From NCBI RefSeq assembly GCF_921293095.1, contig NC_060246.1, forward strand, positions 10,248,001-10,312,000: a stretch of 64,000 bases of DNA, written 5' to 3'. A program made the translations under genes and the position numbers. Source of the stretch: Ischnura elegans (taxonomy: Eukaryota; Arthropoda; Insecta; Odonata; Coenagrionidae). The first letter of the stretch is position 1. Each line of letters starts with the position of its first letter. The notes beneath the pieces were generated by a model that searched no databases, was not told the origin of the DNA, and worked only from the letters and a program-made list of their open reading frames with translations. Shown one piece after another: positions 29,772 through 43,952 of the stretch.

Positions 29772-30205
29772 AGAAGTCCATTGGCTTCCTATTACTTCCT
29801 CTCGCTATTAGACATGCTAACCTAAGCGCCCCTCATCCACGAAGCGCCTCCCTCCATTCAACCGGCAAGGCGACACCAGCTGTGAGGTATTACGGTCCGT
29901 ACTCTCTTCTCATCCCGAAATCGATTAAATAACCTTAAGCTAGCAACGAGTTTGTTGACATTTGCACTATAGTTATTGGTTTTCTCAGGAAACCCCAAAA
30001 TCACTTATTTCGTACAACAGTGCGAGAAATGGCAACTGGTTTCTAAAATGTATGTACCCTTATACTTCGCAATCGGATGACTTGCCCAACTTAGCATACT
30101 CATTTGTAAATACTGCAATGAATGGTCAATATATGTAGATTTAAGGAAGCAAATGCATCAGTTTTATTAGCGTTTTAATTTATGTTTTTTTCCTTCAAGA
30201 ATAAT

Positions 30206-30838
30206 TAAATTACGAGGGCTGTTTTTTACGTAAGGGCCGTTTTGGCGTACTCTGTAGCAGTTCGCACTCCGTCCGTAACGAGTATGCGCGCCGACTCCCG
30301 GAATTCCTTGCGAACAACCACGTGTCAGTTGCAGTTCTGCATCTAACCTTTACGCTTTACTGTGGATCTTTAAAATGTTTTAAGATGATTGAATCGTCCG
30401 CCGCGTGTGAGATTCGGTCAGTGATACGATTTTTGACTTCAAGAAACATGTCGATTGCAGACATTCACCCTAAACTATGTGAAGTGTATGCTGCTAATGC
30501 AATTCGCGAAGATGAAGTGCGGAAATGGGCCGGAGAATTCAAGGATTGCCGCGAAAATGTTCACGATGTCGATGATGATCGCTCAGGACGGCCATCTTTG
30601 ATCACAAACGTTGTCGCGCTGCAAAATCAAGGCAACGGTGTTCTGGGACAGGCGCGGTGTTTTGCTAGTGTACTTTATGACACGAGAAATGACGATCAAC
30701 TCAGAAGCCTACTGGCCAGGCTCCGACGCGCCCTTCAAAGCAAAAGACGCGGTATCTCGCGTGAACTCCTGGTGGTCAGGGCAGGCGGCAAACTTCTTTA
30801 AAGAGTTGTTTCAAAACTTAGTTTTAAGGTATGACTAG
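30206..30838 (+). pseudogene. Internally deleted mariner-like element
   Basis: The left end has ACGAGGGCTGTTTTTTACGT, as in mariner-like termini. The frame from 30385 encodes a SETMAR/mariner-type DNA-binding region: CEIRSVIRFLTSRNMSIADI, then VYAANAIREDEVRKW and DVDDDRSGRPS. It then jumps to ATVFWDRRGVLLV and INSEAY...RRALQSKRRG. It ends with the C-terminal tail QAANFFKELFQNLVLRYD in another frame. The part with the first catalytic Asp and the HDNARPH-type second Asp is missing, so no active transposase is possible. I see no matching 3' terminal repeat. Confidence 0.75.
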
Positions 30839-34579: not shown

Positions 34580-36195
34580 GCAAGGGACGGAAGGCGACTG
34601 AGACGACTGAAGCTGAGCGAAAGCTCATTATTTATAGCTACTATAATGAATGTAATTCACTGAATCAAATAGGGTGGTTTCCTATTATTTTTTATTGCCT
34701 AAATCGAAAGATTATTACTGCTGAAGTACGCATTTCACACTTTTAGGTTTTAAATGACGATATCTATTTTTAGCGATTAAATGAAAAGTGAAAAGTTTCA
34801 AGCGCGCGAAAACGCGACGGCTAAATATGAATGCTGGGAAAAGCCCGCGTGACGTCATTCTGATTCCCGCTATCGCCGGGTGAGGTAACCTTGCGGCGAT
34901 GATATGTGCGCCGCTGCGATGCAGGTTAGCAGAGTATCCTGCTAGCAGCTATCGCTTTGCCTAAATATGGATTATTAATACCTTATCAAGCGAAGGAAAC
35001 TTTCCGACCATAGGCAGTTTCAATGGGTGATTATTAAGACACGTTTCCCTTAGCTCTGTGCCTCATGCATGCATTGGTAATCTCAGACGATGTAAAACTC
35101 CTATCTACTCGTATAGCAACTAGGTCCCCGTGACGTCACGTGGAGTGGCATCGCATGGGCGCCTATCTGGCCTTTTTCAAATGATGTTAAAATTGACCAT
35201 TGCCATTCGTCTGAACTGGGATTTCTAAAGCCAAATAATTGGTATATTATGAATACACTAATGGTGGGTAGCGAATCGCAATCAATGCCTTTCGTTTTCT
35301 TTGATGAAGGAAACTACCCAATTACTGGACTTGTCAAACGACCTAGGTCAACTGTCTACGGCAGAGTAAATTGGTTCGGGAATACCAAGACTGTTCTAAA
35401 CAAGCTCCTAAGCGGACGTCCACGGAAATTGACTAACAGTGACACCCATGCGGAGATCAAGAAGGACCTAAAAACCAGCGCTCCCAAGGTAACTGCCGAT
35501 CAAGACAAGTGTGATGCTTACGCATATGTAGGTACCGTCCAGAATGTGTGGAAGCAAAACGGTCACCACGGCCAAGTAGCAAGGAGGAGAATGCCGTGTA
35601 TCAGCGTAGTCAATCGCAAGAGGCAGGTGGATTTCGCTCAGGAACATCAATCTGAGCCTTTAGAGCAGTGGTATCGCGTGATTTTCGCTGACGAGAGCAA
35701 GTACAAAATATTCTGATCCGATGGTCATCAAATGATGAGGCGTCGGAACAATACTGAGCTCGATCCCAAGACCATGAAAGCAAAAGTGAAAGCAAATGGG
35801 GTTGGTTCTGAGATGGTGTGGGGGTCTATGGGCTCGTCTGGAGTGGGTAAACTGCACTTTGTGGAAGGGATCATGGACCGCAAGATCTAAATCGACATAC
35901 TGAAGCAAAATTTGTTACTTAGTACTGATAAAATGGGACTGAGAAACAAATTTACATTTCAACAGGACAATGAGCCAAAACTCAAGGCAAAGAATACAAT
36001 GCTGTGGATCAAGCATAACACACCCGAGATACAAATAGGGTAAAGGCAAATATAAAACATGAATGACCTCAAGATTTCCTTGTTAGAAGAATGGAAAAAA
36101 TACCCACTATTGTTACATCAAAATTGGTCCATTCAATGTCAAATCGCCTTCAGGGAGTCCTGAAAACCAAAAGGAATGCCACAAAATACTAATTA
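34580..36195 (+). pseudogene. Tc1-type DDE transposase, inactivated
   Basis: The helix-turn-helix region starts TETTEAERKLIIYSYYNECN, is interrupted by family B copy 4, and resumes TGLVKRPRSTVYGRV...SGRPRKLT. The catalytic part shows VIFADESKYKIF (first Asp), then SEMVWGSMGSSGVGKLHF, and FTFQQDNEPKLKAKN (second Asp; usual DPKH altered). The DLNPIE block with the third acidic residue is deleted, while the tail LLEEWKKYP persists in another frame. In-frame stops occur at 35716 and near 35887. It is not functional. Confidence 0.88.
34671..35320 (+). mobile_element. MITE family B, copy 4 (650 bp)
   Basis: AGGGTGGTTTCC to GGAAACTACCCA, flanked by AT. Excision of the element plus one AT joins ...SLNQI to TGLVKRPRST in frame, which is the expected Tc1 transposase sequence. 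Confidence 0.88.
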
Positions 36196-37952: not shown

Positions 37953-37957
37953 CGGGG

Positions 37958-37996
37958 CACAGTGGGGCGAAAACCGTTTTGGTCTGCCAAAACCCT
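37958..37996 (+). repeat. Left Transib terminal repeat, RSS-like
   Basis: Heptamer CACAGTG, a spacer of 22-23 bp, then CCAAAACCC, comparable to the RSS nonamer ACAAAAACC. The match to the nonamer is partial. Confidence 0.7.
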
Positions 37997-38505
37997 AAAA
38001 TTCATAATGTCCGGATTTTATTTAAATTTTTTTCTTAGGTATTATAATGTCAAGAGCAATGGAATCTGAAGAAATATTTCCGTTTCAATCATTAATGTAG
38101 AGACAGCAACCCTACAAACATGAGTGATGCAGAAATGCATCGCCAGCACGCGCAGATTTTGGTTTTATTCGTCAAGTTCTTCACGGCCACTGCTAAGTAC
38201 CAGCAAAAAGTGTTTCTATCCACGAGATAACCAATACTTGACGATCACTACCTTTAAATATCAGACCCTAGTACTTCTAGAAGAAGTCATTTTTTGGGCC
38301 TTCATAACATGTGCTACAAGTTTCAGAATAACACAAAATGTCACTTGAGCTACAAAAAATGTCTAACGATGTCGGATCGATATATTACTTTGAATCAAAT
38401 GGTTGTTATGTGCTCGAAGAGCCAGAAAAAAATTGGGTGCTGGTTCGCGCAGGTTTTTGAGATAATTGCTTTAGAGTGCAACTATGTATTACTTTGGTAA
38501 GCGCT

Positions 38506-38523
38506 CCGCGGCGCGCGCCGCGG
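38506..38523. repeat. Perfect 18-bp GC palindrome inside the Transib 5' region
   Basis: CCGCGGCGCGCGCCGCGG is its own reverse complement. It lies in AT-rich surroundings, directly after a GTAAGC donor-like sequence and 130 bp before the transposase start. Confidence 0.85.
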
Positions 38524-38654
38524 TATAGGCAGCAACAAAACCTCTCACATATCGCCACCGAGAAGATTTTGTCCATTACTTTTTCGCTGGTGATTGAGAT
38601 AGATAGGGCCAGTGGTAGTAGGGTTCTCCGGTGTTCTAAAACGTGCTCGTGGTT

Positions 38655-40838
38655 ATGTTAACGATATCGAGGCATGAGTTACATAAGCTGTTGATGACGG
38701 AAAAACGTCTTCCATGGGAAGAACGTTACCAGCGTGTGTATCTTCATTTGGATGAAGTATTTGGTTTTCCCAAAGACAATGTGATAGAGGAGAAAATGAA
38801 AAGGACGGTGCGGCGGCTTTGTGGGGAAGTGCGAAAGAAATGGATGGAATCTCACCGCATTGAAAAGGACTTTCTTCGCTACCATGGAGATTGGCTGGAT
38901 GCGAAAATTGTAATTAATATTCCTGGAACTACAAAAACGACCACAAAAACTTCAGGTATTTATAATATTTTCAACGTAATAATTTTTTATTTAGATTCTA
39001 ATTAAAATATTTTGATCGATATATTACTAGTACTGTTGCACACTTTAATGTATTTGTATGTTCAATCAAATTGCTGATTAAATTTTTGCAGGCAGCGGTC
39101 GGCCAAGAAGAGGCTTTGAGGAGAGTAGCTACCGCAGTAAGATGAGAATGGTGGAGGAAATGACGGCAACTACGAGTACACCGGCCCTAACTTTTGCGAC
39201 CGAAAAGGCTCTCCGTGCTCAAGGCAGGGATGCAGAGGCTGGACTGGTGAAAGAAGCTCTCCACTCTACTCCCACTCAAGCATCAAAAATAGTAAATGCT
39301 TGGAAAAAGTCTCAGTCGAAAGAGAGTAAGTTCATCCATCCATACTCCCCTGAAGAAGCCCTTGCTCGCATGATTGAAGCCGATTTGTCTCGCAAATCAT
39401 ATCAAACCTTACGATCGCAGGCGATAGAAAGGGGATCAGATTTATATCCCTCTTATAAGAAGTTCCTTTTAGCCAAACAGAATTGTTATCCGTGCAACAC
39501 TGCGGTCATAATCACTGAACGTAAGGCTGAAGTTAACGTACAGGCCTTACTTGACATAACTGTTTCCAGAATCGCCATGCTGCAAGCGGACGTTATGGAG
39601 ACCCTTTCTCCCATCGTTCTCCAAAATTTACATTTGATCTGCAAGTGGGGGCTTGATAGTAGCAGCTCCCAATCTATGTACAAACAGGTCTCTAAAGACA
39701 ACTTTATCGACAGTGTTCTTATAATGACGTGTGTCGTCCCTCTTCAGTTGTACTACAAAGAAGACAATAGTGCAAAGGTAGTGGTGTGGCAGAATGTTCG
39801 CCTTTCATCTACAAGGTATTGCAGGATTTTAAAGCCAGAGTTTAAAAAAGAAAATAAGGAAACAATACTTAATGAACAGCAAAACGTTCAGACACAAATT
39901 GATGGACTAGAACCTTAGAATGTTGTCATACCGAGTTGTGGTCCTATTCAAGTACGCCATACAATGATAATGTCAATGATTGACCGTAAGGTATGCAACG
40001 CCATTACACACACTTCGTCTCAACGGTGCTGCCTTTGTGGTGCATTCCCCCGGGAAATGAACAACATCGACAAAGTTCTGGAAAGGGGATTTAATACAGA
40101 ATCGTTTCGATATGGACTTTCAACTCTGCATACCTATATTCGATTCTTTGAATGGCTTTTACGCGTTAGCTACCGGTTAGAGACTCTAGCATGAAAAAAA
40201 ACTACAGATACTAAAGACCTAATACAGAGAAGGAAAATTGAAATTCAAAAAAGTTCAAGTCTGAGACGGGTCTTCTAGTAGACATCGTCAAGCAAGGTAG
40301 CGGCAATAGTAACGACGGAAATGCTGCGAGTCGTTTCTTCCTGAACGCTTCAAAGTCAGCCGCAGTAACTGAATTAGATGAGGAACTAATTAGCCGGTGT
40401 GACACAATCCCACGAAGTCTCTCCTGTGGTTACGCTGTTAATGTGCAAGCATTCCAAAAGTATGCAATTCATACAGCTAGGCACTGTGCCCGTCTCTACC
40501 CATGGTATCTAATGCCCGCATCAGTTCACCGAATATTAATTCATGGTTCGGATGTAATAGCAGTTGCACTTCTTCCCATCGGAATGTTAAGTGAAGAGGC
40601 TATGGAGGCGCGCAATAAAGATTTCAGGAGATTCCGGGAAAAAAGATGCAGAAAAATCTCCAGAGAAGATATTAATAGAGATCTTTTCAACATTTTAATG
40701 GTATCGTCAGATCCACTTATCTCATCCTTGCGGCCATTACCTCCGAGAAAGAATGGAAGTCTAAAACCGGATGTCTGCGCTCTTCTTCAGAGTGTTAGCA
40801 GATCTACAACGGACAGTGAAAGCGAAGACAGCGATTAA
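38655..40838 (+). pseudogene. Transib / RAG1-core-like transposase, two exons, inactivated
   Basis: Exon 1 is 38655-38955 and exon 2 starts at 39092, with a GT-AG intron of 136 bp; the phases fit (G + GC). The coding length is about 680 residues, normal for Transib. At the junction GSGRPRRGFEESSYRSK resembles the GGRPR nonamer-binding motif of RAG1. Further blocks are CKWGLDSSSSQSMYKQ (candidate first Asp, residue 289), VVVWQNVRLSSTRYCR, MIDRKVCNAI and CCLCG (Zn-type cysteines). Then come GSGNSNDGNAASRFF (candidate second Asp, codon at 40314) and LSEEAMEARNKDFRRFREKR (candidate Glu, codon at 40605), the last resembling RAG1 NKLFRRFRK. Breaks are in-frame TAG at 39916, TGA at 40192 and a frameshift in the A-run near 40250. 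The start at 38655 is the first ATG after an in-frame TAA at 38637. Confidence 0.9.
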
Positions 40839-41288
40839 TACAAATTCAAAGTGAATCAAATTTTTTTCTGATATATGTTTAAGAATTTGTTTAGCGTTTA
40901 ACTTGTTAATATTAGAATTTATTTTGAAAAAGGGTATTATCTGTATTAAGAAGTGATCAATTTGATATTTTACTTAAAATTTATGTAGTGAAAGCTATAT
41001 TGGAAGTTGAATTTTTATACCTTAAACTATTATTTGTCTTGTAAAACAATATTTATAAAATTTATAAACATATAAATGTGATTATAAATGTCCACGTGTT
41101 ATTCTCTAGGTTATTATATGATATTATTTCCGTTCTCAGTAAAAAAAACATTAAAAGTTCAATGCAAATTTTTTAATTTGTTTATAATTTTTCCGCTTTT
41201 CCTTTTCTTAAAATTTAATTGCATATTCCTAATTACCAGCCCATAATATGCAATCATATGAATTTTTATGTAAATCAGACAAGTCCTT

Positions 41289-41327
41289 GATATTTTGCCG
41301 ACTTTCTCCGAATTTGGCCCCACTGTG
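41289..41327 (-). repeat. Right Transib terminal repeat, RSS-like
   Basis: On the - strand, CACAGTGGGGCCAAATTCGG, with GCAAAATAT at the same 22-23 bp distance from the heptamer as in the left end. Confidence 0.7.
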
Positions 41328-41375
41328 CGGGGGTTCGGAAAACGGAAGAGTCCGGATCTATTTATTTTACGAAAT

Positions 41376-41886
41376 CTATCCCAATAAACAAACAAATGGA
41401 ACAATTGGTGAACGAACCCACTGGTTTTCCTTAAATTTGGAATTGCCGTGAAAGAGAATGCAATTGCAAGTTTGAGTTTTAAAATTTCTATTTTTTAATT
41501 TTAACTAAATCTATCCCAATAAACAAAAAAATGGAAAAAAATTGGTGAACGAACCCACTGGTTTTCCTTAAATTTGGAATTGCCGTGAAAGAGAATGCAA
41601 TTGCAAGTTTGAGTTTTAAAATTTCTATTTTTTAATTTTAACTAAATCTATCCCAATAAACAAAAAAATGGAAAAAATTGGTGAACGAACCCACTGGTTT
41701 TCCTTAAATTTGGAATTGCCGTGAAAGAGAATGCAATTGCAAGTTTGAGTTTTAAAATTTCTATTTTTTAATTTTAACTAAATCTATCCCAATAAACAAA
41801 AAAATGGAAAAATTGGAGAACGAACCCACTGGTTTTCCTTAAATTTGGAATTGCCGTGAAGGAGAATGCAAATGCAAGTTTGAGTC
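41376..41886 (+). repeat. Tandem repeat, unit of about 136 bp, 3.8 copies
   Basis: Units start with CTATCCCAATAAAC at 41376, 41511, 41648 and 41784. Each contains GTGAACGAACCCACTGG, TTAAATTTGGAATTGCCGTG and AGAGAATGCAATTGCAAG. Copies 2 to 4 are nearly identical; copy 1 is more diverged. The array begins 44 bp after the Transib target duplication. Confidence 0.95.
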
Positions 41887-42203
41887 ATGTCTTCAAATAC
41901 TCATAACCACATGCAATGCTAACATTTGAAAATCAAAAGTTTATGAGCCGCCTAAAATCGCCATCAGCTTTTACTGCCTCGGAAAGACATTAGGGATTGA
42001 TTAGGGTTAGGAATTAATTGCTACGCTAATTAGTATGTCGAGGAAAAATAGACTTCAGTTATGAAGTAATAACCGCATGTTTTCAGTGGAGAAAATTTTC
42101 AAGTTGCGAGTAAAGTAGATTAGAGGCAAAAGTAGATTAGAGAAACTCTCTAACGATCTCATCTCCAGGTACCCGAGAATTCTTGTTCTGCAATATCACC
42201 CTA
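41883..42203 (-). repeat. Right copy of the large inverted repeat
   Basis: Inverse homologue of 36992-37170, starting TCATGTCTTCAAATACTCAT and ending GAATTCTTGTTCTGCAATATC. It includes an inserted segment at about 41990-42130 that is duplicated at 42957-43080. Confidence 0.7.
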
Positions 42204-43080: not shown

Positions 43081-43291
43081 GCAGGAACTCTGAGACGCAG
43101 AAGACCAACAAAAATTAATACTTACAACAAAGTCATTTAAAAATCGACGAAGAATAATAATAATGGCCAAAGAAGGATTCTGGGTTCCTTAATAATATGA
43201 GAAGAACATCAGCAGCTTCCTGCTTAGCGGAGTAAAGACTAACTACGATCCTGGTAAAAAGGCCAGTTACTTCCCCTGGGCAATCAACATT

Positions 43292-43952
43292 AGAGTGGTT
43301 TCCTATTATGTTTTATTGCCTAAATCGAAAGATTATTACTCCTGGAGTACGAATTTTAAACTTTTAGATTTTTAAATGACGATATATATTTTTTGCGATT
43401 AAATGAAAAGTGAAAATTTTCAAGCGCGTGAAAACGCGACGGCTAAGTATGAATGCTGGGAAAAGCCCGTGTGACGTCATTCTGGTTCCCACTTTCGCTG
43501 TGTGAGGTGACCTTGGGGCGAGGACATGTGCGCCGCTGCGATGCAGGCTGCTAACAGATAGCAGAGTACCCTGCTAGCAGGTAACGCTTGACTTAAATAA
43601 GGATTATTAATACCCTATCAAACGAAGGAAACTTTCCAACCTCAGCCAGTTTTAATAGGTAATTATTAAGAGATATTTCCCTGAGCTCTGTGCCTTGTGC
43701 GTGCATTGGTAATCTCAGGCGATGTAAAACTCATATCTACTCGTATAGAAACTAGGTCCCTGTGACGTCACGTGGAGTGGCATCGCATGGGCGCTAATCT
43801 GGCGTTTTTCAAATGAGGTTAAAATTGACAATTGCCATTCGTCTAAACTGGGATTTCTAAAAGCAAATAATTTGTATATTATGAATACACTAATGGTGGG
43901 TAACGAATCGCAATCAATGCATTTCGTTTCCTTTGATGAATGAAACTACCCT
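43292..43952 (+). mobile_element. MITE family B, copy 5 (661 bp)
   Basis: AGAGTGGTTTCCTATTATG to TGAAACTACCCT, collinear with the other copies. The flanking AT pair is not preserved (TT on each side). Confidence 0.8.

Follow-up and report, generated by a model that had tools for sequence, protein, structure and literature searches.

A decayed Transib transposon in Ischnura elegans and a family whose broken copies were probably moved in trans

What kind of element occupies positions 37958-41327 of the Ischnura elegans DNA analyzed here (a stretch of 64,000 nucleotides, hereafter the window), and how could a family of copies with damaged genes have multiplied? Read from its ends in the sequence, the element measures 3,370 bp on the forward strand. 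Both ends start with CACAGTGGGGC, the left one reading CACAGTGGGGCGAAAA from 37958 and the right one, on the reverse strand, CACAGTGGGGCCAAAT from 41327. A 5-bp target duplication, CGGGG, flanks the element at 37953-37957 and 41328-41332 (forward strand), as seen in the sequence and in the comparison of family copies. The terminal inverted repeats are CACAGTGGGGCGAAA at 37958-37972 (forward strand, heptamer 37958-37964) and CACAGTGGGGCCAAA at 41313-41327 (reverse strand, heptamer 41321-41327); both recur among the family copies and were followed by pattern search, and an inverted-repeat search recovered the terminal pair as 37957-37972/41313-41328. The heptamer is CACAGTG, the usual consensus of the RSS heptamer. 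A second block, CAAAA, lies at positions 31-35 of both ends (37988-37992 on the forward strand and 41293-41297 on the reverse strand). The original prediction had described a complete Transib transposon with RAG-type heptamer ends, and when the sequence was re-read its ends, the CGGGG on each side and the register of the CAAAA block proved correct to the base. The window element therefore carries the CAC-initial terminal inverted repeats with an RSS-like heptamer and the 5-bp target duplication of a Transib.

The enclosed gene points the same way. The protein blocks GRPR, LDSSSSQS, NDGNAA and SEEAMEARNKDFRRFR named in advance were all found in it, and comparison with solved structures matched three pieces to the transposase chain 6pqn of HzTransib from Helicoverpa zea, namely 39142-39915 (E 3e-31), 39919-40191 (E 1.4e-14) and 40266-40835 (E 1.6e-50). 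The anticipated RAG1-related Transib transposase was thereby recovered, the coding blocks giving a significant match to HzTransib rather than none to Transib or RAG1. The catalytic residues of HzTransib are reported as D126, D225 and E436 (PMC6941560), and with these published numbers offset by a constant 17 from the chain numbering in our alignments, all three acidic positions (D, D, E) are kept in the window element, in the forward-strand codons 39655-39657, 39982-39984 and 40605-40607, respectively. A homologous transposase with the D-D-E residues of Transib is thus present. Its gene appears to have two exons on the forward strand: exon 1 (38655-38955, about 100 aa) is open in the window copy, with borders predicted from the open frame, GT/AG and codon phase, a putative GT...AG intron follows at 38956-39091, and exon 2 (39092-40838) holds the transposase body by homology to PDB 6pqn. 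The reading register was taken from locus L030, the sole full-length copy of the family with an open exon 2. In this register the window copy is interrupted three times, by stops at 39916 and 40192 and by a frameshift of one base near 40246, so that a full transposase cannot be made from it. The element is therefore complete as DNA, as originally claimed, but not in the coding sense, and without an intact transposase gene the window copy is not autonomous. It is an ordinary, decayed member of Transib, a kind of element that is already known. A GC-rich near-palindrome was noticed by eye within the element at 38500-38525, on the upstream side of the gene; a part in a promoter would be a guess.

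HzTransib, the closest point of comparison with solved structures (PDB 6pqn and five further entries), is 3518 bp long and encodes 489 aa (PMC1852546). It shares with the window element a homologous transposase, the three acidic residues, terminal inverted repeats, a 5-bp duplication and a similar length. The alignments nevertheless place the two in different families, HzTransib is reported to be functional (PMC8355894; PMC6941560) whereas the window copy is broken, and its single reported duplication, GCTCG, is not of the CGNCG form. Transib is the family from which RAG1, the recombinase of antibody genes, arose. We also weighed whether the element could be a RAG-like (RAG1L-RAG2L) transposon. 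The frame of L030 does match the RAG1L chain 6b40 (E 5.4e-07), and the last, C-terminal piece of the window gene approaches RAG1 in Pfam (E 0.035) and RAG1L chain 6b40 (E 1.1); the Pfam value is below the curated cut-off, which none of the window pieces exceeded for any Pfam family. Against this, the HzTransib match is far stronger than those to RAG1 or RAG1L, the open-reading-frame list shows nothing longer than 81 aa within the element apart from the transposase pieces, and the ends published for protostome RAGL differ, with the consensus CACTWMCAAACKTYKBB (PMC7204232). With no partner frame and a much better match to Transib, a RAGL transposon was rejected as highly improbable, and we proceed with the Transib assignment.

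The search for further copies covered the genome of 1.72 Gb in 110 contigs and scored the best 40 of 86 candidates, so that whole-genome counts are lower bounds. Among the 39 family loci fetched, of which the window copy is L009, are fragments and two diverged copies (L042 and L044). Twenty of the loci are full length (L009-L027 and L030), ten (L032-L041) lack the same internal stretch of about 405 bp, starting at 39063, and the remaining nine are truncated or diverged. The possibility that other copies would have different ends or lack a 5-bp duplication was not borne out, as the ends are the same and an exact duplication is present, at the same boundaries, in 27 of the 31 two-ended copies. 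The four lacking a matching duplication are L014, L017, L019 and L042, one of which belongs to a group of seven near-identical copies discussed below. CGNCG is reported as the preferred Transib target site (PMC4735498), and 24 of the 27 duplications fit it (CGGCG in 10, CGACG in 5, CGCCG in 5, CGTCG in 4, and CGGGG, CGGAG and GGCCG in one each). The family as a whole accordingly has this preference, but the CGGGG of the window copy does not fit: the GC-rich duplication of the original prediction is the CGNCG kind of site, from which the window copy deviates at one base. A pattern search extended this beyond the fetched loci, finding CACAGTGGGGCNAAA at 596 places in the genome (1 with the reversed pattern as control), with CGNCG directly before it at 409 of them (control 0).

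Insertion itself could be followed at a sister copy. When the flanks of L037 are joined with a single CGTCG, the result is an uninterrupted host repeat, matched over all 400 bases at 93-98% identity in 20 of the 41 matches listed. Because these copies of the host repeat run uninterrupted across the joined flanks, L037 is an insertion, and this adds to the ends and the shared boundaries in delimiting the element. The flanks of L037 are like those of L039 (100% and 99.2% on the two sides, over 500 bp). Both loci (on contigs C9 and C8 of the assembly, G000), as well as several of the uninterrupted repeat copies, sit near contig ends. L037 and L039 are thus probably one insertion that was copied along with a subtelomeric repeat. 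Searches of the genome for four-unit runs of telomere-type repeats gave 3 overlapping hits at a single internal place for TTAGG and none for TCAGG, and neither occurred at the contig ends. For the window's own flanks, no element-free copy of the site was found in this single assembly.

Each end had also been described in the original prediction as a heptamer, a spacer and a partial nonamer. The window-family copies are young, so conservation of positions 31-35 within the family is uninformative and only comparison between families counts. Such a comparison was possible with two other Transib families of this genome, B (L068) and C (L070), set against the window family, A. Over six ends and twelve cross-family pairs, mean identity was 100% at positions 1-11, 75% at 12-15, 46% at 16-30, 87% at 31-35 and 46% at 36-45, with the qualification for the 31-35 conservation that A, B and C are few and related by descent and that a fourth family, D (L069), fits at one end (in the one copy read, CAWAA lies at 32 of one end and at 29 of the other). 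Genome-wide, CACAGTGGGGC is accompanied by CAWAA between positions 26 and 36 at 567 places (controls 0 and 3). Among 100 listed of these, the block begins at 31 in 52 and at 32 in 45, a figure of 97 that is conditional on CAWAA at 26-36 and includes many places that are copies of a single family and at least two that look like chance. The second block is therefore kept in register beyond the window family, as anticipated, and because this register is held across families whose neighboring bases diverged, the CAAAA block looks functional. The comparison supports a two-part end in Transib.

How closely this end resembles an RSS is a separate matter. The consensus of the RSS nonamer is ACAAAAACC, and if CAAAA stands for nonamer positions 2-6 the spacer is 22 bp; the proposed arrangement stands to this extent, but the fit to the nonamer is modest, at 7/9 in the left end and 5/9 in the right. 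Compared with the RAG1/RSS system of jawed vertebrates, the element shares the heptamer CACAGTG and a distant transposase homology (best E 3.3e-06, for family B against RAG1 chains). It differs in these nonamer letters and in that no RAG2 partner is seen among its open frames. A 12/23 asymmetry was rejected, as both ends have CAAAA at 31-35. Symmetric spacing of 20-22 bp to a nonamer-like block is reported for Transib, and the same source gives CACAAAG as the most common heptamer form in Ig loci (PMC8355894). The window element shares this spacing with the superfamily along with the CAC-initial ends, the 5-bp duplication and the CGNCG preference, and no departure from Transib was found in the features tested. 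The view of this locus as a near-ideal paleogenomic comparison for RSS evolution was therefore overstated, since its ends are symmetric, its spacing falls within the published Transib range and its nonamer fit is partial. Transib transposases are related to RAG1 and act with no RAG2 partner, and families with common outer ends, target and second block but different spacers allow a test of which end bases these enzymes need. The same multi-family genome also allows a test of whether the RSS nonamer has its precursor in this second block.

The state of the copies raises the question of how the family spread. A coding defect is present in all 20 full-length copies, in exon 1 only for L030 and in exon 2 for the other 19. 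Despite this damage, two groups are nearly identical: the seven full-length copies L018-L024 differ by 0-0.21% over 21 pairs (two of the copies show no difference along the aligned length), and eight deletion copies (L032 and L034-L040) differ by 0.03-0.34% over 28 pairs. The window copy belongs to neither group, with its closest sister 2.3% away. L018-L024 and all ten deletion copies carry the same in-register stop, which lies at 39679, eight codons past the first catalytic Asp, and the seven-copy group also has a 7-base deletion in common. Apart from L037 and L039, no pair of near-identical copies has flanks that match on both sides, and a short repeat is common to a flank of some of the others. 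With a stop ahead of the second catalytic residue, near-identity and differing flanks, the lineage would have multiplied after its gene broke, with enzyme from elsewhere. Gene conversion between copies could instead have made older insertions look alike. We favor recent movement, in which the transposase for these near-identical broken copies was probably supplied in trans.

Taken as a whole, the observations are best explained by a DNA transposon of the cut-and-paste type that belongs to the Transib superfamily, a reading we hold with high confidence, and whose broken copies would be moved by an enzyme in trans. A transposase dimer would bind the outer 11-15 bp of each end together with the CAWAA block at 31-35. 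By analogy with HzTransib, for which hairpin-forming chemistry has been published (PMC6941560), cutting may leave hairpins on the flanks. Insertion would then occur preferably into 5-bp CGNCG sites and leave the duplication. Any copy whose gene ends ahead of the second catalytic residue would have been moved by a trans enzyme, either of the same family (L030 or an unassembled copy) or of another, related Transib family whose outer ends are the same.

DNA transposons are usually moved by helpers of the same family, which counts for an own-family source, and we lean slightly toward this: either L030, with translation beginning inside exon 2, or an intact copy, polymorphic or missing from the assembly. 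The exon-2 frame of L030 is uninterrupted over 585 aa, has all three acidic positions and on its own aligns with the HzTransib chain over residues 8-471 of 497 (E 1.8e-125). The HzTransib protein is 489 aa long (PMC1852546), so exon 1 may be dispensable, and initiation within exon 2 may still give L030 an active protein. This has to be set against a 4-base insertion that shifts the frame of L030 exon 1, about 1.1 kb inserted in its intron, a distance of 2.6% to its nearest sister and the broken exon 2 of every other full-length copy.

The enzyme could also come from another Transib family, family B being one candidate. Its locus (C1:12574177-12577440) has the transposase body in a single stop-free frame of 691 codons, about 45% identical to the window-family protein, which matches HzTransib with E 9.2e-106 and Pfam RAG1 at 28.8 bits (above the cut-off of 25); PADLOC gave no match for this frame. 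Five full-length copies of the family are at 99%, three of them with the stop-free frame, and the one copy inspected for it has a CGTCG duplication. At both ends family B agrees with the window family in the outer 11 bp and in CAAAA at 31-35, the positions that are conserved across A, B and C. A transposase of such a family, reading the outer 11 bp and CAWAA, is a possible though not the expected mover of the broken copies: the ends common to the three families may be plain inheritance, bases 16-30 differ between families and may matter in binding, and L030, itself a member of the window family, may be where the enzyme comes from. The fuller proposition, that a family with hardly a working gene was multiplied by the transposase of a family about 45% identical to it reading mainly the outer 11 bp and CAWAA, we consider rather unlikely. 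If true, many element types of this genome, with its 596 end places, would draw on one transposase pool.

Family B is not alone in this genome. A search for other families scored the best 75 of 5,739 first-look candidates, and among these other Transib families have stop-free frames of 691-714 codons at about 39-45% identity. L069 (about 1.3 kb) and L070 (about 2.25 kb) have CACAGTGGGGC ends and CGNCG-type 5-bp duplications without an intact transposase, L070 retaining a transposase fragment. Open frames of about 243 aa that hold only the N-terminal Transib half were considered as a domesticated gene family. This was rejected, as the frames look like a repeat that is young, non-autonomous and present in many copies. 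With one such frame as query, the best 150 of 2,122 first-look candidates were scored and 154 matches were obtained (L071, at G000:C19:3181939-3182664, and 153 others), the best 18 being 94-100% identical over 241-242 of 242 aa, and many of the further ones are shorter pieces, often with one TAG.

Further repeats were noticed around the element in the window. Four tandem copies of a unit of about 136 bp occupy 41365-41947, starting some 30 bases to the right of the element. A direct repeat of about 560 bp lies on both sides of it (34670-35226 and 43291-43858, 8.6 kb apart), with pieces 89-92% identical. Fragments of two further transposons were also observed, one of Mos1-type mariner at 30205-30801 (Pfam HTH_48, E 4.5e-06) and one that is Tc1/Tc3-like at 35117-35716 (Pfam HTH_Tnp_Tc3_2, below cut-off).
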